Origin: Rhabdothermincola sediminis
Lineage (GTDB): Bacteria > Actinomycetota > Acidimicrobiia > Acidimicrobiales > Acidimicrobilacustridaceae
Direction: 5' to 3'
Assembly (NCBI RefSeq): GCF_014805525.1
Contig: NZ_JACFSZ010000009.1
Coordinates: 62,001 to 126,000, forward strand
DNA: 64,000 nt
Below the pieces are notes generated by a model. The model was not told where the DNA came from, ran no database searches, and was given only the letters and a program-made list of their open reading frames with translations. Both the position numbers and the translations under genes were made by a program. Shown piece after piece: positions 39,210 through 47,549 of the stretch (its first letter is position 1; every line of letters begins with the position of its first letter).

Positions 39210-39504
39210 CACGGTGATCATCGCTCGGCTTCGGCTTGCGGCAGCACGGGAGCGAGCGTATTGGCCGCTCTCGGCCTGGGCTGCGGTGTTCAGGCCGAGC
39301 GAGACTCGCGGTCGGTGTGGAGGTGGTCAGGCGTGCGGCAGGCGGCACGGGGACTCCCAGGCGATCGGGCCGCACGCTCTTGGCCGCGGCTGTGACCGCG
39401 AGAGGGAGAGAGAAGCCGGGAACGCCCGGGAAGCGCAGTGACCACAAATGTCCTGGTCATACCCTAGTTTCACCCCGTTCCCGCAGGTCAGAGCACTGGT
39501 GACG
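39210..39504. other. Gene-free stretch
   Basis: About 295 bp between the IS remnant and the tRNA fragment. Open frames are present on both strands but are Arg/Gly-rich without start signals or family character. I see no promoter, repeat or RNA structure that I can support. Confidence 0.4.
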
Positions 39505-39553
39505 TGGGATTCACACGGCAGAGGCCACTGGTTCGAGTCCAGTATCGCCCACC
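39505..39553 (+). pseudogene. 3' fragment of a tRNA-Val(CAC)-like gene
   Basis: It contains an anticodon loop TTCACAC (39510-39516; CAC at 39512-39514) followed by stem GGCAG, a perfect T arm (ACTGG, TTCGAGT, CCAGT at 39527-39543), acceptor strand ATCGCCC (39544-39550) and discriminator A, then CCC. The matching 5' half is absent: there is no GGGCGAT acceptor strand or CTGCC anticodon stem upstream. Such 3' ends are typical attachment-site scars of integrated islands. Confidence 0.65.
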
Positions 39554-39591
39554 CGCAGCCACGGGACGTCCCTGGGGCTACCCTCGAGGAC

Positions 39592-39948
39592 ATGGGAGGG
39601 ACGCGGCAGGTCGATGGCCCCGGACGGGACGGCTGCTGTGCCGCCCCCGACCTGAGCGGACCGCCTGCCGAACCCGCCGAGCTCGACGACGAGCAACTGG
39701 CGGGCATGGCCAAGGCGCTCGGCCACCCGCTCCGGGTCCGGATCCTGAGGCTGCTCGTGGAACGCAGGGCCTGTGTCACCGGGGACCTCGTCGCCGAGCT
39801 GCCGGTCGCGCAGTCCACCGTGTCCGAGCACCTACGGATCCTGCGTGAAGCCGGCCTCGTCCAAGGCGAGATCGAGGGGCCCCGGACCGCCTACTGCGTC
39901 AGCCCCGCCGGTCTCGCGGCCTTCAAGCACGCTGTCGCCGGGCTGTGA
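39592..39948 (+). CDS. arsR: ArsR/SmtB family arsenic-type repressor
   Basis: A 118-residue winged-helix repressor. The HTH region is AKALGHPLRVRILRLL (residues 39-54) and AELPVAQSTVSEHLRILREAG (near 67-87). Cysteines lie in the N-terminal DGCCAAP, in RRACVTGDL at the second helix region, and near YCVSP, so As(III) or Sb(III) sensing by a non-classical Cys set is plausible. ATG at 39592 follows GAGGA. It leads the arsD-arsA operon, separated by a palindromic operator. Confidence 0.88.
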   Translation: MGGTRQVDGPGRDGCCAAPDLSGPPAEPAELDDEQLAGMAKALGHPLRVRILRLLVERRACVTGDLVAELPVAQSTVSEHLRILREAGLVQGEIEGPRTAYCVSPAGLAAFKHAVAGL

Positions 39949-39993: not shown

Positions 39994-40026
39994 GTGTTAT
40001 CGGCAATCGACGATTGACGATAACAC
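39994..40026. promoter_or_regulatory. 33-bp palindromic ArsR operator
   Basis: GTGTTATCG (39994-40002) and CGATAACAC (40018-40026) are perfect inverted 9-mers. CAATCG and CGATTG (40004-40009, 40011-40016) form a second nested pair around a central A. The site overlaps the arsR-arsD gap, about 15 bp before the arsD start, where repressor binding would block transcription of arsD-arsA. Confidence 0.7.
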
Positions 40027-40041
40027 GATGGAGGTCTGGCG

Positions 40042-40803
40042 ATGACGGTCATCGAGGTCTTCGACCCAGCGATGTGTTGCTCGACCGGCGTGTGCGGTCC
40101 CAGCCCCGACCCGGTGCTGGCGACCTTCACCGCCGACCTGGACTGGCTGGCCGCCCGGGGTGTGGAGGTTCGCCGGTTCAACCTCTCCCAGGAGCCGGGT
40201 GCGTTCGTGCAGCGACCGGCGGTCCAGCACCTGCTGACCCGCGACGGTGAGCAGGCCCTTCCCATCGTGGTCCTCGACGGGGAGGTGCGCTCGAGTGGTC
40301 GGTACCCGTCCCGCGGTGAGTTGGCCGGCTGGGCGGGCGTCGAGGCCGTGGAGGCGGTCGGTGTGTGGAGCGACGCCGTCGCCGAACTGGTCGCCGTCGG
40401 TGCCGCTGTCGGCGCGAACTGCGAGCCATGCTTCAAGTACCACTACGACAAGGCCCGCAAGTTCGGCGTGACCAACGAGGAGCTGGTCGCAGCGGTGCGC
40501 ACGGCCCAGGCGGTGAAGGACACTCCTGCCCGGGCGATGCTGTCGTTGGCCGCCAGGCTGCTGCGGGTGGACGCCGCCGCCTTCGGCTCCCCGCTGGCTC
40601 CCGCCTCGGCGCCAGCCGACGAGCCCACCACGGAGACGCCCGACAACGGCGGGAGCTGCTGTGGGTCCGACGAGCCCGTGGCGATCGGTGCCACCCCTGG
40701 GACCGGCTCCGCCGGTGCGTCGGTCACCGTCCCGCCGGCAGGCGACGATGGTCCCGGCATCCCGGCGTCGGGTGAGCCGACGGGCTCGGGTTGCTGTGGC
40801 TGA
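40042..40803 (+). CDS. arsD: ArsD-AhpD fusion arsenic metallochaperone
   Basis: A 253-residue protein. Residues 1-110 are an ArsD domain with Cys12, Cys13 and Cys18 at the same positions as classical ArsD. Residues 112-180 are a carboxymuconolactone-decarboxylase/AhpD-like domain with the redox motif C127-x2-C130-x3-H134. A Pro/Gly-rich tail follows with two vicinal Cys pairs (206/207 and 251/252), as at the end of classical ArsD (about 120 aa). ArsD hands As(III) to ArsA. The arsA start overlaps or abuts its stop. Confidence 0.85.
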   Translation: MTVIEVFDPAMCCSTGVCGPSPDPVLATFTADLDWLAARGVEVRRFNLSQEPGAFVQRPAVQHLLTRDGEQALPIVVLDGEVRSSGRYPSRGELAGWAGVEAVEAVGVWSDAVAELVAVGAAVGANCEPCFKYHYDKARKFGVTNEELVAAVRTAQAVKDTPARAMLSLAARLLRVDAAAFGSPLAPASAPADEPTTETPDNGGSCCGSDEPVAIGATPGTGSAGASVTVPPAGDDGPGIPASGEPTGSGCCG

Positions 40804-40810
40804 GCGGACC

Positions 40811-42592
40811 ATGAACCTCGACTCGCTCATTGGCGCCGCCGGTCGCTACGTGTTCTTCACCGGCAAGGGTGGCGTGGGCAAGACCTCCGTCTCCTCGGCG
40901 CTCGCCCTCGCCCTCGCCGACCGCGGCGCCCGGGTGCTGCTCGTGAGCACGGACCCCGCCTCCAACCTCGACGAGGTCCTCGCCACCCCATTGGGGTCCG
41001 GGCCCCGCCCGGTGAACGGGGTCGACCGGCTCTGGGCGATGAACGTCGATCCCGAGGCTGCCGCGGCCGCCTACCGGGAGCGGGTCGTCGGCCCCTACCG
41101 GGACCTGCTCCCGGCATCTGCCGTGGCGTCGATCGAAGAGCAGCTCTCCGGCGCGTGCACCGTCGAGATAGCGGCGTTCGACGAGTTCACCGCCCTGCTC
41201 ACCGACGATGAGCTGACCGCCGGTTTCGACCACGTCGTGTTCGACACCGCCCCGACCGGCCACACCCTGCGCCTGTTGGCACTGCCTGCGGCCTGGACGG
41301 CCTTCATCGACGAGAACACCCTCGGCACCTCCTGCATCGGACCCCTGTCGGGGCTGTCGCAGCAGCAGGAGCGCTACGCCCGTGCGGTGGACACGTTGGC
41401 CGACGCGGCGACCACCACGCTCGTGCTGGTCGCTCGTCCCGACCGGATCTCGCTCGGCGAAGCGGCACGTGCCGCCCGCGAGCTGGCGGAACTGGGGATC
41501 GCCGACCAGCACCTCGTCGTCAACGGGGTGTTCGTCGCCGGTGACCCGGCCGACCCCGTGGCCGCCGGGCTCGAGCGAAGGGGCCGGGAGGCGCTCGAAG
41601 CGCTCCCGTCCGAGCTGCGGCCACTCCCCAGGCACGAGGTGCCACTCGTCGGGTGGAATCCCGTGGGAACCGCCGGGCTGCGTGCCCTCGTCGGCGGTGC
41701 CGCCCCCGTCGAGGTGGAGCCGGCCCCTGCCGTCACGGACCTCCGGCTGGTCGGGCTGGCCGACCTGGTGGCCGATCTCGACGCCGCCGGCCACGGCCTG
41801 GTGATGACCATGGGCAAAGGTGGGGTGGGCAAGACCACCTTGGCGGCGGCCATCGCCGTCGAGCTGGCCCGCCGTGGGCACCGGGTGGAGTTGTCCACGA
41901 CCGATCCGGCCGCCCACCTCGACGCCACCGTCGGCTCGCACGCCGGGGTCGGTGACCTCGTGGTCCATCGCATCGATCCGGAGGTGGAGACCGAGGCCTA
42001 CACGGCGGAGGTCCTGGCCACGACGGGCGCCGGCCTCGACGACCGGGCACGGGCGGTGCTCGAGGAGGATCTCCGCTCCCCGTGCACCGCCGAGATCGCG
42101 GTCTTTCGTGCCTTCGCCCGCACGGTCGGGTCGGCGACCGACCGCTTCGTGGTGCTCGACACCGCCCCGACGGGCCACACCATGCTGCTGCTCGACGCCG
42201 CGCGTGCCTACCACCGGGAGCTGGGTCGCCAGAGCGGTGCCGTGCCCTCGGAGGTGTCGGCACTGCTCGACCGGTTGCGGGACCCGACCTTCACCCACCT
42301 CTTCGTCGTCACGCTCCCCGAGCCCACCCCCGTGCACGAGGCCGCCGACCTCCAGCAGGACCTGCGTCGGGCCGGCATCGAACCGGAGGCCTGGATCGTG
42401 AACCGGAGCCTCACGGTGGCGGGTTCGACCGATCCGGTCCTGGTGCGACGGGCACGCGACGAGCGACGCTGGATCGCGGAGGTGCACGACACGCTCGCCC
42501 GGCGGGTCGCCGTCGTGCCGTGGGCGGCCGAGCCACCGGTCGGTCCGGAGGAGTTGGGGCGGCTGTTCGGGGCGGTGCACGCCGGTCGGTGA
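40811..42592 (+). CDS. arsA: Arsenical pump-driving ATPase ArsA
   Basis: A 594-residue pseudo-duplicated ATPase. Both halves have deviant Walker A loops (TGKGGVGKTS at residues 17-26 and MGKGGVGKTTL near 336) and DTAPTGHT switch II motifs. Metalloid-site cysteines fall at 116 (SGACTVEIAAFDEF), 175 (GTSCIGPL) and 425 (LRSPCTAEIAVF), matching the three As(III) ligands of classical ArsA. It normally energises an ArsB or similar As(III) pump, but no pump gene is in this window. GTG at 40796 is an alternative start. Confidence 0.93.
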   Translation: MNLDSLIGAAGRYVFFTGKGGVGKTSVSSALALALADRGARVLLVSTDPASNLDEVLATPLGSGPRPVNGVDRLWAMNVDPEAAAAAYRERVVGPYRDLLPASAVASIEEQLSGACTVEIAAFDEFTALLTDDELTAGFDHVVFDTAPTGHTLRLLALPAAWTAFIDENTLGTSCIGPLSGLSQQQERYARAVDTLADAATTTLVLVARPDRISLGEAARAARELAELGIADQHLVVNGVFVAGDPADPVAAGLERRGREALEALPSELRPLPRHEVPLVGWNPVGTAGLRALVGGAAPVEVEPAPAVTDLRLVGLADLVADLDAAGHGLVMTMGKGGVGKTTLAAAIAVELARRGHRVELSTTDPAAHLDATVGSHAGVGDLVVHRIDPEVETEAYTAEVLATTGAGLDDRARAVLEEDLRSPCTAEIAVFRAFARTVGSATDRFVVLDTAPTGHTMLLLDAARAYHRELGRQSGAVPSEVSALLDRLRDPTFTHLFVVTLPEPTPVHEAADLQQDLRRAGIEPEAWIVNRSLTVAGSTDPVLVRRARDERRWIAEVHDTLARRVAVVPWAAEPPVGPEELGRLFGAVHAGR

Positions 42593-42849: not shown

Positions 42850-43752
42850 GTGAGTGCCTTCACCAACACGGCGACCGCGGACACGCCCGGAGTCGCGGTC
42901 AGCCTCCGTTCCCGGCGTGGCCGCGTCCGACCCGGTGCTGATGGCCCGTCGATGGACCGCCGGCAGTTCGTCGACCGGCTCGCTGCCATGGGGGCCACCG
43001 GGTTGGCGGCGGTGCTCGCCTCCGGCGGGGTCGGAGGTGCCGTGCTCGGCGCCACCCGCCCTGCCGCCGCCGAAGCCGTCACCACCGGCCAGAAGTACCG
43101 GTACGGGATGGTCATCGACACGCGGCGCTGTGTGGGCTGCAAAGCGTGCATGGCGGCCTGCAAGACCGAGAACGTGACCCCGCCGGGCGTGTCCTACACG
43201 GTCGTGGTCGAAGAGCACAACGAACAGGCCTTCGACCGCCCCCTGTTCATGACCAAGCCGTGCTTCCACTGCTCGAACCCGCCGTGCACGAAGGTGTGTC
43301 CGGTCTCGGCCACGTTCAAGCGGGAGCAGGACGGCATTGTGGTGGTCGACTACGACCGCTGCATCGGCTGCCGGTACTGCATCACGGCCTGCCCCTACGG
43401 GGCCCGGTACTTCGACTTCGGGGAGCACTACCCGGCCACCGAGCCCGGCCAGGCCCTGGCGGAGCTCCCGTCGCCCGAGTACGGCCAGTACCGGGTACGC
43501 CGGGAGGGCGCCTCGCCGGTGGGCAACGTCCGCAAGTGCACCTTCTGCATGCATCTGCAGGACGCCGAGGGCCGGTACTCGAAGGAGGAGGGGCGTTGGC
43601 CGGCGTGCGCCAAGACCTGCACCGGCCACGCCATCCACTTCGGTGACCTGAACGATCCCGACAGCGAGGTCTCGATCCTGTTGCGCGAACGGCAGGCGGT
43701 TCGCCTGAAGGAAGAGCTCGGGACCGAGCCCAACGTCTTCTACCTGTTGTGA
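42850..43752 (+). CDS. Four-cluster Fe-S electron transfer subunit (PsrB/TtrB-like)
   Basis: A 300-residue protein with sixteen cysteines in the four 4Fe-4S motifs of DMSO-reductase-type electron-transfer subunits (C94/97/100/104, C138/141/146/150, C171/174/177/181, C230/233/253/257). A Tat-type signal (DRRQF near residue 37, then a hydrophobic stretch to about 70) puts it outside the membrane. It would pass electrons between the NrfD-type subunit and the Mo subunit. The start is GTG at 42850; ATG at 42952 would begin at the Tat motif. Confidence 0.9.
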   Translation: MSAFTNTATADTPGVAVSLRSRRGRVRPGADGPSMDRRQFVDRLAAMGATGLAAVLASGGVGGAVLGATRPAAAEAVTTGQKYRYGMVIDTRRCVGCKACMAACKTENVTPPGVSYTVVVEEHNEQAFDRPLFMTKPCFHCSNPPCTKVCPVSATFKREQDGIVVVDYDRCIGCRYCITACPYGARYFDFGEHYPATEPGQALAELPSPEYGQYRVRREGASPVGNVRKCTFCMHLQDAEGRYSKEEGRWPACAKTCTGHAIHFGDLNDPDSEVSILLRERQAVRLKEELGTEPNVFYLL

Positions 43753-43765
43753 GCGAGGTGGCGTC

Positions 43766-45049
43766 GTGAGCGAGGTGACCGTGGAGCGCTGGTTGAAGCG
43801 CGCGTTCTGGGCGGCGGGGATCGTGTTCGTCGCGATCGGTGTCGTCGGGTGGTACGACCGGCTGCGCTTCGGCCACCTCGACGCGGCCTACGGCAGCATC
43901 GTCCCCTGGGGTCTGTGGGTGGCTGCCTACATCTTCTTCATCGGGTTGTCGGCGGGGTCGTTCCTGATCTCGTCGCTCGTGTACGTGTTCGGCGTGAAGC
44001 GCTTCGAACCGATCGGGCGCATCGCCCTGTTCCAGGCCCTCATCACCCTCACCTTGGCGCTGCTGGCGATCTGGGTGGATCTCGGGCACATGGGTCGGGC
44101 GTTCAACGTGTACCGCTACCCGAACTTCTCTTCCCCGATGGCGTGGATGATCTGGCTCTACAGCGCCTACTTCGCGCTGTTGGCGACGGAGCTGTGGTTC
44201 CTGCTGCGGCGGGACCTCGCCGCCGGCGCGCAGGGTTCCGGTGGTCGGGCCCGCCTGTACCGGGTGCTCGCCCTCGGCACGAAGGACACCTCGTTCGAGG
44301 CGGCCGAGAAGGATCGGAAGGTCGTGAAGGTGCTGGCCACGATCGGCATCCCGATCGCCATCATGTTCCACGGCGGTGTCGGCGCCCTGTTCGGCGTTGT
44401 ATCGGCCCGTCCGGGTTGGAACAGCGGCCTGTTCCCCATCCTGTTCCTGCTCTCCGCCCTGGTCAGCGGTGGTGCACTGCTCATGCTGGTGGCGGCGATC
44501 TTCCAGGGCGGGTACCGGCGCAACGGCGACACGATCGTGGCTCTGGGTCGACTCGTGGCCGGGCTGCTCGTGCTCGACGTGATCTTCCAGATCTCGGAGT
44601 ACCTCATCGCCTCGTACGGGGAGGTGCCGGGCCACGTGGAGGGGCTGAAGCTCATGTTCTCCGGCCCCTACTGGTGGGTGTTCTGGGGATGGCAGCTCGC
44701 CCTCGGCACGATCATCCCGCTCGTCATCCTGTTCTCACGCCGCGGACGCCAGCCGCTTTGGGCCGCCGCGGCGGGAGGGCTGATCGCTCTCGGGTTCATC
44801 GGGGTGCGGCTCAACATCGTCATCCCCGCGCTCGCCACCGAGGAGATCGAGGGGCTGACGACCGCGATCGTCAGCTCACGGATCAGCACCGACTACTTCC
44901 CCAGCCTCATGGAGTGGCTGGTCGTGGTGGGCATCGCCGGCCTCGGGCTGCTGCTGTTCGGGCTGGGCGAGTCCCTCCTTCCCGTCGACCGTGCCGCCGA
45001 GCAGGCCGGTCCCGCCGACACCGCGGAGGTCGACCATGTACGTGTTTGA
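43766..45049 (+). CDS. NrfD/PsrC-type quinone-interacting membrane subunit
   Basis: A 427-residue polytopic protein with about 9-10 predicted helices and the NrfD family layout (GLSAGSFLISSLVYVFGVKRF; YRYPNFSSPMAWMIWLYSAY; HGGVGALFGV; WGWQLALGTIIPLVILFSRR). It anchors the complex and exchanges electrons with menaquinone. It starts 13 bp after the Fe-S gene and its last 14 bp overlap the Mo-subunit gene, indicating cotranslation. Confidence 0.9.
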   Translation: MSEVTVERWLKRAFWAAGIVFVAIGVVGWYDRLRFGHLDAAYGSIVPWGLWVAAYIFFIGLSAGSFLISSLVYVFGVKRFEPIGRIALFQALITLTLALLAIWVDLGHMGRAFNVYRYPNFSSPMAWMIWLYSAYFALLATELWFLLRRDLAAGAQGSGGRARLYRVLALGTKDTSFEAAEKDRKVVKVLATIGIPIAIMFHGGVGALFGVVSARPGWNSGLFPILFLLSALVSGGALLMLVAAIFQGGYRRNGDTIVALGRLVAGLLVLDVIFQISEYLIASYGEVPGHVEGLKLMFSGPYWWVFWGWQLALGTIIPLVILFSRRGRQPLWAAAAGGLIALGFIGVRLNIVIPALATEEIEGLTTAIVSSRISTDYFPSLMEWLVVVGIAGLGLLLFGLGESLLPVDRAAEQAGPADTAEVDHVRV

Positions 45050-47549
45050 CAGGGCCGTCGGCCGTCGTGCGTTCATCCGTGGTGGTGGCGCCACCGTCGC
45101 CGGGGCGGTCGCAGGCGTCGGGCTGACCGGCTGCGCCGGCGACGCCACCGAGCACGCCCTCCCCGTCGACGAGGAGGGCCGGGCTGTCTGGGGGCGCGAA
45201 TCCGGTGAGTGGATCCCGAGCTGCTGCAACATGTGCGGCGGGCAGTGCGGGATCATGGTCCATGTCGTCGACGGCACGGTCACGAAGATCGAGCCGAACA
45301 ACTGGAACCCGAACAACTACACCAACATCTCGACGGACTTCTTCGACGGCTACAGCGAGACCTACGGCGTCGCCGAGGGGTCGGTGATCTGCCCCAAAGG
45401 CAACGCCGGCATCGCCCAGCTGTACGACCCGGACCGCGTCTCGAAGCCGTTGAAGCGCACCAACCCCGACAAGTCGCTCGATGCCGACCCGGCCTGGGAG
45501 GAGATCTCCTGGGACCAGGCGCTCGACGAGATCGCCGGGCGTCTCCGCGCCCTGCGTGACGCCGGAGAGGCCCACAAGCTGCTGTGGATCAGCGAGGACC
45601 ACTCGTTCGTCCACATCCAGCAGGACTTCACCGAGCTGTACGGCACCCCCAACTACTCCAACCACTCGAACCTGTGCGACGTGGCGCGCAAAGCGTCGTG
45701 CAAGTCCGTCATGGGTGACGAACGGCCGTTGGCGGACACGATCCAGTCGCGGTACGTGATGCTGTTCGGCTGGAACCCGACGTCGGCGATCAAGTGGGTG
45801 CACCTGCCCCGGATCATCACCCGGGCCGTCGAGAACGGCGCCCGGCTCGTCGTGGTCGACCCCTACCTGTCTGACACCGCCGCGAAGGCCCACGAGTGGG
45901 TCTCGCTGCGCCCCGGCACTGACGGCGCGCTGGCGCTCGCCATGGCCCACGTCATCATCCGGGACGAGCTGTACGACCGGGAGTTCATCGAGAACTGGAC
46001 GGTCGGGTTCGACGAGTTCCGGGCTCACGTGGCCGACAAGACCCCCGAGTGGGCCGAGGAGATCACCTCCGTGCGGGCCGCCACGATCGAGCGGTTGGCC
46101 ACCGAGCTCGCGACCACCAAGCCAGCGCTGGTCGACTTCTGGAGTGGGCCCGGCCAGCACTCCAACGGGGTGCAGGGCGGGCGGGCGATCGCCCACCTCA
46201 ACACGCTGATCGGCTCCTGGGACCGGCCCGGGGGGATGATCATCCCGTCCCGCAAGGGCAACAAGCACGTGCACATCGACCCGGACCCCGCGGTCGAGGC
46301 GACCCTCGAGCAGCCACGGTTCGACCAACTCGACACCTACCCGCTCGGCCACAAGTCCGGGGTCTACGCCCGCATGTTCGAGAACCTGCTCGAGGGCAAG
46401 GGTCCCTACGACGCCAAGGCCATGGTGTGCATCTTCCAGAACCCGGTGATGGCCGTGCCGGGCGCGGATCGGGTCGCCGAGGCGCTCGCCAAGCTCGAGC
46501 TGTTCGTGGTCGTGGACACCATGCTCAGCGAGACGGCGATGCTCGCCGACTACGTGCTGCCCGGCAGCACCTACCTCGAGCGCTACGACTTGAACACCCA
46601 CTGGGTCACCTGGACCGCGATCGGTCTGCGCCAGCCGGTGCTCAAGCCGATCTTCGGTCAGCCGACCGAGTACGAGATCGTCACCGAGCTCGGCCGCCGG
46701 CTCGACCTGCGGGACGCGGACGGCAAGCCGTTCTTCCGGATCGGGCCCGTGTCGGGCACCGAGATCGACGACACGACGGCCTGGTACGAGGAGTACCTGT
46801 CGGCCGAGCTGCAGGCCGGCCCGGGCATCACCCTCGAGGAGCTGAAGGCCATGCCCGGTGCGGTGTATGTGAGCACCAAGGGCACCGAGTACGCCAAGTA
46901 CGACACCGTGTTGGCTCCGGACAAGCTCGCGACCGCGTACTTCGACGGTGACCCCACCGCCGAGGGCACCGCGATCTGGGACAAGCCCAAGGACGAGGGT
47001 GGCACGCTCATCGGTCACATCATCGGTGGCCAGCCCCGGCGGGGGTTCTTCACCGAGAGCGGCAAGGTGGAGTTCGTCTCGACCTCGCTGGCCGGCAAGA
47101 AGGACGCGGCCGGCAACGAGGTCGACCCGCTCCCGGTGTACACCCCCCGGGACTGGCAGCCCGACCGGCAGTACCCGCTCTACCTCATCAACTGGAAGGA
47201 GGCGTCCCACACGCACTCCCGCACCCAGAACAACGCCATCCTGCTCGAGTTGAAGGCCGACAACCCGCTCGTCGTGCACCCCGACACCGCGGAGCGCTTC
47301 GGCGTGAGAGACGGGGAGCAGGCCTGGGTGACGTCCCCCTACGGGAGGGTCCAGGCACGCGTGCAGGTCAGCCGGCGGATCCACCCCGAGGTGGTCGGCC
47401 TCCAGCACGGCTTCGGGCACCGGGCCCTGGGGCGGCTCGCCCGTGGGCGCGGGACCGCCGACGGGGTGCTCCGCCCCGTCAAGGCGGATCCGCTGTCGGG
47501 CATGGCGTTGCACAAGGAGGCCTGCGTCACCATCAGTCCTGTCCGCTGA
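45036..47549 (+). CDS. Molybdopterin oxidoreductase catalytic subunit (PsrA/PhsA/ArrA-like)
   Basis: An 837-residue Mo-bisPGD enzyme. Tat signal GRRAFIRGGG at residues 9-18 is followed by a lipobox LTGC at Cys33, suggesting a Tat-exported lipoprotein. The 4Fe-4S ligands are C64-x2-C67-x3-C71 and C119, with an unusually long 47-residue gap. The expected Mo-ligand position is Cys214 in HSNLC. Later Mo-cofactor motifs include DPYLSDTAAKAHEWV, PGGMIIPSRKGN and GLQHGFGHRALG. Location beside arsRDA suggests an arsenate reductase or arsenite oxidase, but polysulfide, thiosulfate or tetrathionate are open options. Confidence 0.85.
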   Translation: MYVFDRAVGRRAFIRGGGATVAGAVAGVGLTGCAGDATEHALPVDEEGRAVWGRESGEWIPSCCNMCGGQCGIMVHVVDGTVTKIEPNNWNPNNYTNISTDFFDGYSETYGVAEGSVICPKGNAGIAQLYDPDRVSKPLKRTNPDKSLDADPAWEEISWDQALDEIAGRLRALRDAGEAHKLLWISEDHSFVHIQQDFTELYGTPNYSNHSNLCDVARKASCKSVMGDERPLADTIQSRYVMLFGWNPTSAIKWVHLPRIITRAVENGARLVVVDPYLSDTAAKAHEWVSLRPGTDGALALAMAHVIIRDELYDREFIENWTVGFDEFRAHVADKTPEWAEEITSVRAATIERLATELATTKPALVDFWSGPGQHSNGVQGGRAIAHLNTLIGSWDRPGGMIIPSRKGNKHVHIDPDPAVEATLEQPRFDQLDTYPLGHKSGVYARMFENLLEGKGPYDAKAMVCIFQNPVMAVPGADRVAEALAKLELFVVVDTMLSETAMLADYVLPGSTYLERYDLNTHWVTWTAIGLRQPVLKPIFGQPTEYEIVTELGRRLDLRDADGKPFFRIGPVSGTEIDDTTAWYEEYLSAELQAGPGITLEELKAMPGAVYVSTKGTEYAKYDTVLAPDKLATAYFDGDPTAEGTAIWDKPKDEGGTLIGHIIGGQPRRGFFTESGKVEFVSTSLAGKKDAAGNEVDPLPVYTPRDWQPDRQYPLYLINWKEASHTHSRTQNNAILLELKADNPLVVHPDTAERFGVRDGEQAWVTSPYGRVQARVQVSRRIHPEVVGLQHGFGHRALGRLARGRGTADGVLRPVKADPLSGMALHKEACVTISPVR

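Follow-up and report, generated by a model that had tools for sequence, protein, structure and literature searches.

In the 64,000-nucleotide stretch of the Rhabdothermincola sediminis genome analysed here (contig NZ_JACFSZ010000009.1, positions 62,001 to 126,000; hereafter the window), one gene (arsD-ahpD, 40042-40803, plus strand) codes for an ArsD protein that continues into an AhpD/CMD domain and a disordered, cysteine-rich tail, all within a single intact open reading frame of 253 amino acids. The same architecture occurs in 20 proteins from many genomes and thus is neither a chance event nor an assembly artefact. With a probability of roughly 0.5, we read the product as a variant As(III) metallochaperone that carries a tethered AhpD dithiol, which would exchange with the cysteines of the ArsD part.

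The two domains were recognized independently by curated profiles. In Pfam searches, residues 1-105 matched PF06953 (ArsD; E = 5.8e-40, 136.8 bits, cut-off 27) and residues 107-164 matched PF02627 (CMD; E = 4.9e-10, 39.7 bits, cut-off 23), and the NCBIfam models NF033727 (chaperon_ArsD, 121.3 bits) and TIGR00778 (ahpD_dom, 31.4 bits) scored above their curated cut-offs of 90 and 27.8, respectively. The fusion proposed in the initial annotation is thereby borne out. Sequence matches in the PDB divide in the same manner: three ArsD structures align with residues 2-106 (E = 1e-30 to 3e-21), and CMD/AhpD proteins with residues 93-176. The ArsD part forms a thioredoxin-fold core (residues 1-101, 40042-40344, plus strand) and shares with ArsD of E. 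coli R773 (3mwh, 3kgk, 3ktb) this fold (Z 16-17), the C-terminal vicinal cysteine pairs, the arsD-arsA gene order and the identical positions of Cys12, 13 and 18 (40075-40080 and 40093-40095, plus strand), which had been noted from the sequence and are confirmed by the translation. These As(III)-site cysteines are invariant in all 20 fused proteins. The N-terminal three cysteines of ArsD are required for metallochaperone function, and the C-terminal pairs of E. coli ArsD are proposed to serve regulation (PMC4562236). The fusion differs from the R773 protein by an AhpD domain of about 70 residues ahead of the tail and by the positions of its pairs, which are 206/207 and 251/252, as against 112/113 and 119/120 in the latter (PMC4562236). 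Another two-domain form, the ArsD-ArsN fusion (cited in PMC6205960), likewise joins ArsD to a second domain, but its partner is ArsN and not AhpD.

The AhpD/CMD domain (residues 107-176, 40360-40569, plus strand) consists of three helices and contains the active-site motif C127-E-P-C130-x3-H134 (40420-40443, plus strand), in agreement with the C-x2-C-x3-H site originally suggested at 127-134. Glu115 (40384-40386) lies 12 residues N-terminal of Cys127 and completes the signature E-x11-C-x2-C-x3-H, just as Glu118 precedes Cys130 in AhpD of Mycobacterium tuberculosis. This signature and the helical fold are shared with the AhpD/CMD family (M. tuberculosis AhpD, PA0269, RclX 7y4r), from which the fusion differs in being a single short three-helix unit joined to ArsD and in one position of the active site. 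AhpD is an adaptor peroxidase that acts via its CxxC, and its proton relay in M. tuberculosis comprises Glu118, Cys130, His132, Cys133 and His137, with Tyr50 as the fifth relay residue in PA0269 (PMC3141380). Four of the relay residues are present in the fusion (E115, C127, C130 and H134); the His132/Tyr50 position alone differs from the M. tuberculosis enzyme and is occupied by Pro129, and the residue set of a catalytic AhpD hydroperoxidase is thus incomplete.

Structure prediction with AlphaFold2, based on a family alignment of 15 sequences, yielded pLDDT values that mostly exceed 90 in the ArsD core and the three AhpD helices (residues 111-124, 128-140 and 145-174; about 90-96 in the AhpD domain) and mostly stay under 50 in the tail (residues 187-253, 40600-40800, plus strand) with its pairs CC206/207 and CC251/252. 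The ArsD part superimposes on 3ktb with Z 17.2 and an rmsd of 1.7 over 102 residues, and on 3mwh with Z 16.2. For residues 108-176, the best fold match is RclX (7y4r; Z 10.7, rmsd 1.9 over 69 residues), and the AhpD core protein 2ouw also matches the AhpD part (Z 8.7). Helical fold matches of such size are moderate evidence when taken alone, and this one agrees with the profiles; a lack of any fold match, which would have spoken against the AhpD assignment, was not observed. The pTM of 0.52 leaves the relative orientation of the ArsD and AhpD domains uncertain.

The genomic setting is that of an arsenic resistance operon. The fused gene is preceded by arsR (39592-39948, plus strand; start codon ATG at 39592 inferred from sequence), which encodes an ArsR/SmtB-family repressor (HTH_5, 1.7e-14; NF033788, 70.2 bits, cut-off 55), and is followed after a short gap, directly downstream and on the same strand, by arsA (40811-42592), the gene for a two-domain arsenical pump-driving ATPase (TIGR04291, 768 bits, cut-off 650). 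Counted from the inferred start, the repressor has a Cys-Cys at residues 15-16 and a further cysteine at about 61, an arrangement that brings to mind the As(III) sensor of Corynebacterium. The interval from arsR to arsD-ahpD contains an inverted repeat of 16 bp, GTGTTATCGGCAATCG-A-CGATTGACGATAACAC (39994-40026), with arms that are 94% complementary; it is unique within the window, where none is expected by chance. This repeat is probably the operator through which ArsR controls the arsD-arsA unit, because its core is found again upstream of the fused arsD in an actinobacterial MAG (L048). No ArsB (PF02040) or ArsP (PF03773) was found in the genome of R. sediminis, which is rated 100% complete, and a clear ACR3 is absent from it, the matched stretch of its one SBF protein scoring 28.6 bits against an ACR3 cut-off of 282.8.

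Several features surrounding the operon were inspected. Just ahead of arsR, at 39490-39555, there is a tRNA-like 3' sequence with the T-arm GGTTCGAGTCC, present as a single copy in the genome. ARAGORN calls no tRNA here, and since a second genomic copy is lacking, the duplication of an attachment site, and with it a genomic island, is unsupported. On the other side, arsA is adjoined by genes for an FeS protein, an NrfD protein and a Tat-type molybdopterin oxidoreductase (42850-47549). The closest relatives of known structure are thiosulfate/polysulfide reductase (291 bits) and ArrA (216 bits), both matches being below the respective NCBIfam cut-offs. A fused locus in the Desulfobacterota (L015) has a similar FeS/NrfD pair about 6 kb downstream, but its molybdoprotein is only 25% identical and no such cluster was seen next to the fusion in those acidimicrobial relatives that were inspected; we therefore regard this cluster as separate and not as a partner of the fusion. 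A plasmid search found no PLSDB record covering at least 80% of the fusion, matches in viral contigs were confined to the ArsD core with none to the whole fusion, and PADLOC gave no match to defence systems.

Searches with the window protein and then with the family alignment gathered the 20 fused proteins, and the recurrence that the initial annotation had put up for examination extends well beyond the Actinomycetota. Besides R. sediminis, the fusion was found in five further genomes of the same order (G196, G384, G063, G205, G346), in other Actinomycetota (G576, L048 and L057, the last from Thermoleophilia), in Planctomycetota (L018, L019, L021, L022), Desulfobacterota (L015, G1524, G1635, G1594) and Nitrospirota (L014, G1708), and in an alphaproteobacterial MAG (L016). 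Among arsD-bearing genomes in evenly drawn samples, the fusion occurred in 6 of 12 from the class, 4 of 25 from the phylum, 1 of 8 Planctomycetota, about 4 of 12 Desulfobacterota, 2 of 3 Nitrospirota and 0 of 10 Pseudomonadota; all these shares except that of the Pseudomonadota are slightly high, as each sample includes a preselected centre genome. The ars setting is constant, with arsR and arsA in most fusions. Two of the loci (L145, L142) have ACR3 and an ArsC of the LMW type, and in two others (L255, L139) the fusion comes after acr3 and there is no intact arsA nearby. Therefore, the partner of the fusion need not be ArsA. At L145:2996-4167 (genome G384), a 118-aa gene without an assigned family and an FmdE-like gene of 272 aa are situated between arsR and the fused arsD; a similar gene pair lies downstream of arsA in G205.

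Conservation of the AhpD site bears on what the domain may do. Glu115 and Cys127 are each kept in 19 of the 20 fusions, Cys130 in 18 and His134 in all of them. The exceptions are L021 (Glu replaced by Gly), L057, in which SEPA has lost both CxxC cysteines, and L210, in which CEPG has lost one. At the fifth relay position, all 20 proteins have Pro, Ser, Thr or Gln and never His or Tyr. Peroxidase-type chemistry may thus be weak (PMC3141380). That the domain is an ordinary thiol peroxidase, which removes peroxides or organic hydroperoxides arising under arsenic stress and is attached to ArsD merely for co-expression, appears improbable to us for this reason, although Glu, both cysteines and His of the site are conserved and the AhpD-like PA0269 does reduce H2O2, if weakly (PMC3141380). 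The specific placement of the domain between the ArsD core and the cysteine tail and the association of AhpD genes with ArsM, ACR3 and ArsA likewise speak against it. Selenocysteine was considered as a further variation of the site and rejected: the in-frame TGA of L002-L004 is a normal stop, and no Sec form was seen among the fusions.

AhpD/CMD proteins are trimers or hexamers, and the domain might instead be mainly a structural or oligomerisation module that clusters ArsD and raises the local density of As(III) sites, its own cysteines being dispensable. This alternative deserves to be taken seriously, albeit as an unlikely one. It would explain why L057 and L210 retain the domain without an intact CxxC, and the RclX entry 7y4r, the best fold match, contains six chains. 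Moreover, planctomycete ars operons with either fused or plain arsD contain, between arsD and arsA, a second gene of the CMD family that lacks the CxxC (L018:2979-3419, L019:2171-2641, L021:10681-11061, L049:1470-1868 and L052:3336-3752). A purely structural role is difficult to reconcile, however, with the retention of both cysteines in 18 and of His134 in all 20 fusions, and stand-alone AhpD proteins of ars loci keep the CxxC although they cannot cluster ArsD by tethering. The same CxxC-less forms and the consistently missing fifth relay residue weaken a simple redox reading as well.

An alignment of fused and plain ArsD proteins revealed the same C-terminal cysteine tail in both, with AhpD located between the last helix of ArsD and this tail. 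Hence AhpD is best described as a cassette between the ArsD core and the tail, and the insertion ahead of the pairs 206/207 and 251/252, as first read from the sequence, was correctly placed. The fused L018 and the plain L043, neighbours in the ArsA tree, differ by just this cassette. In that tree (130 rows), the fused state requires 10 changes, at least seven of them on well-supported branches. In the tree of AhpD domains, the fused domains group together, with the exception of four planctomycete CMD proteins that lack Cys, and a single clade of fused domains is not rejected (p-AU 0.21, on 70 columns only). The fused domains thus probably share one origin, and the simplest reading of the two trees would be a single fusion event, with later transfer and repeated losses. 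A linker stretch in the plain L008 protein, DPVTAKLLG, resembles the start of AhpD helix 1, which is suggestive, but only suggestive, of a lost AhpD domain. Such frequent changes of state, with apparent losses among them, could also be expected of a neutral fusion in which AhpD hitch-hikes without any function. We consider this highly improbable: the active site is conserved across five phyla, separate AhpD genes are associated with ars loci in parallel (p = 6e-4), and in a close pair of fusions (L003/L004) dN/dS amounts to 0.14 in the AhpD part, 0.21 in ArsD and 0.26 in the tail (few substitutions), showing that the AhpD part is under purifying selection in this pair.

Stand-alone AhpD genes coding for 67-103 aa, many with CC tails, adjoin ars genes in various arrangements: arsR-arsD-arsA-(arsD-like)-ahpD-acr3 (L134, L135), ahpD-arsD-arsA (L205, L206), arsC-ahpD-acr3 (L260), arsR-arsP-arsC-ahpD with acr3 nearby (L252), and arsM-ahpD (L251). 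An ArsA, ArsD, ACR3 or ArsM gene was located within 5 kb of 11 of 26 stand-alone AhpD genes (two found through arsD being left out) and of 0 of 20 generic CMD/AhpD genes, a difference (Fisher p = 5.8e-4) that is indicative, since the test and control groups stem in part from different phyla and include related, hence non-independent, genomes. In L079 and L082, the stand-alone AhpD has kept the CxxC and lost Glu and His. AhpD is also fused to ArsM (L119, L157). Taken together with the stand-alone neighbours, these fusions give the impression that AhpD has repeatedly become a partner of As(III)-thiol proteins. The family NF041537 comprises triple-Sec ArsM-AhpD selenoproteins with CxxU in AhpD (PMC13188914). 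In it, as in the TIGR04169 AhpD-like partners of arsenosugar loci, AhpD is joined to or located beside another As(III)-thiol enzyme; its partner is ArsM rather than ArsD, and it has CxxU rather than CxxC (PMC13188914). The window protein matches the NF041537 profile weakly but significantly in its AhpD part only (29.7 bits, cut-off 510) and, having no ArsM domain, is not a member. In some ars loci, the stand-alone AhpD gene has a gene for an ECF-type sigma factor beside it or nearby (L206:6051-6947, L205:3987-6982, L254:4392-5255). Other ArsD fusions were encountered as well. At L226:1492-2883, in a Desulfobacterota genome, and also at L259:5331-6722, an ArsD domain (PF06953, 56 bits) is N-terminal to an ACR3-type pump (SBF, 191 bits), forming a chaperone-pump fusion, and at L152:1048-2025, in a planctomycete genome and next to arsR and arsA, ArsD is fused to DUF2703 (71 bits) and has a cysteine-rich tail.

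Arsenite classically targets vicinal dithiols, lipoamide among them, and AhpD of M. tuberculosis undergoes exchange with the lipoyl group on the E2 subunit. On this background, the AhpD domain might serve as an additional As(III) relay, in which the CxPC and the tail cysteines would pick up As(III), and do so specifically from dihydrolipoamide that it has poisoned or from another dithiol, before delivering it to Cys12/13/18. The recurrence of AhpD beside ArsM, ACR3 and ArsA and of CC tails on stand-alone AhpD proteins would fit such a role. As(III) binding in vitro would be expected of most small CxxC domains in any case, though, and we deem the relay rather improbable. A broader version, which we likewise regard as doubtful, is that AhpD might be a general ars accessory, recruited separately to ArsD, ArsM, ArsA and ACR3, that in the fusion docks on lipoyl domains or other dithiols, frees the cofactor most sensitive to arsenite in the cell from its As(III) and feeds this to the efflux chaperone.

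We favour the tethered dithiol because ArsD needs its N-terminal cysteines and AhpD works via its CxxC. The fused gene would be expressed together with arsA under control of the ArsR-type repressor, and the AhpD domain, with its E-x11-C-x-P-C-x3-H site, would swap with the chaperone cysteines. Some dithiol of the cell, or a low-molecular-weight thiol, may supply this domain with reducing equivalents or else with As(III), the direction of flow being our inference. Cys12/13/18 and the tail cysteines would thereby be kept reduced and loadable, and As(III) might be handed on faster, to ArsA or, where relatives lack arsA, straight to ACR3. A coupling of As(III) transfer to reduction by the AhpD domain, as first envisaged in the initial annotation, is thus plausible. 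The confident folds and above-threshold profiles of both domains, the conservation in five phyla, the low dN/dS of the AhpD part in one close pair, the constant ars context, the inverted repeat ahead of the gene and the independent recruitment of AhpD argue for this mechanism; the missing fifth relay residue, the persistence of the domain in L057 and L210 despite the damaged CxxC, the stand-alone AhpD of L079 and L082 without Glu and His, the uncertain domain orientation and the lack of ArsB, ArsP or a clear ACR3 in the R. sediminis genome as a receiving pump argue against it.

In the open-licence literature, we found no description of an ArsD-AhpD fusion or of AhpD as an ars component. As far as could be tested, the fusion is not a standard annotated architecture either, as no NCBIfam model describes it. 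InterPro and similar public architecture databases very probably contain such sequences, which annotation pipelines likely label simply as ArsD, since the equivalog model for ArsD gives a hit. The fusion appears to be a genuine but little-noticed component of arsenic detoxification with a putative role in this process. ArsD has been studied thoroughly as a metalloid chaperone, yet to our knowledge it is unsettled from where it receives As(III) and what keeps its cysteines reduced in bacteria without glutathione. A recurrent natural fusion to a dithiol domain offers a directly testable candidate for this loading or reduction step, and the stand-alone genes and ArsM-AhpD fusions suggest that AhpD-type dithiol proteins may be an overlooked class of ars accessory.
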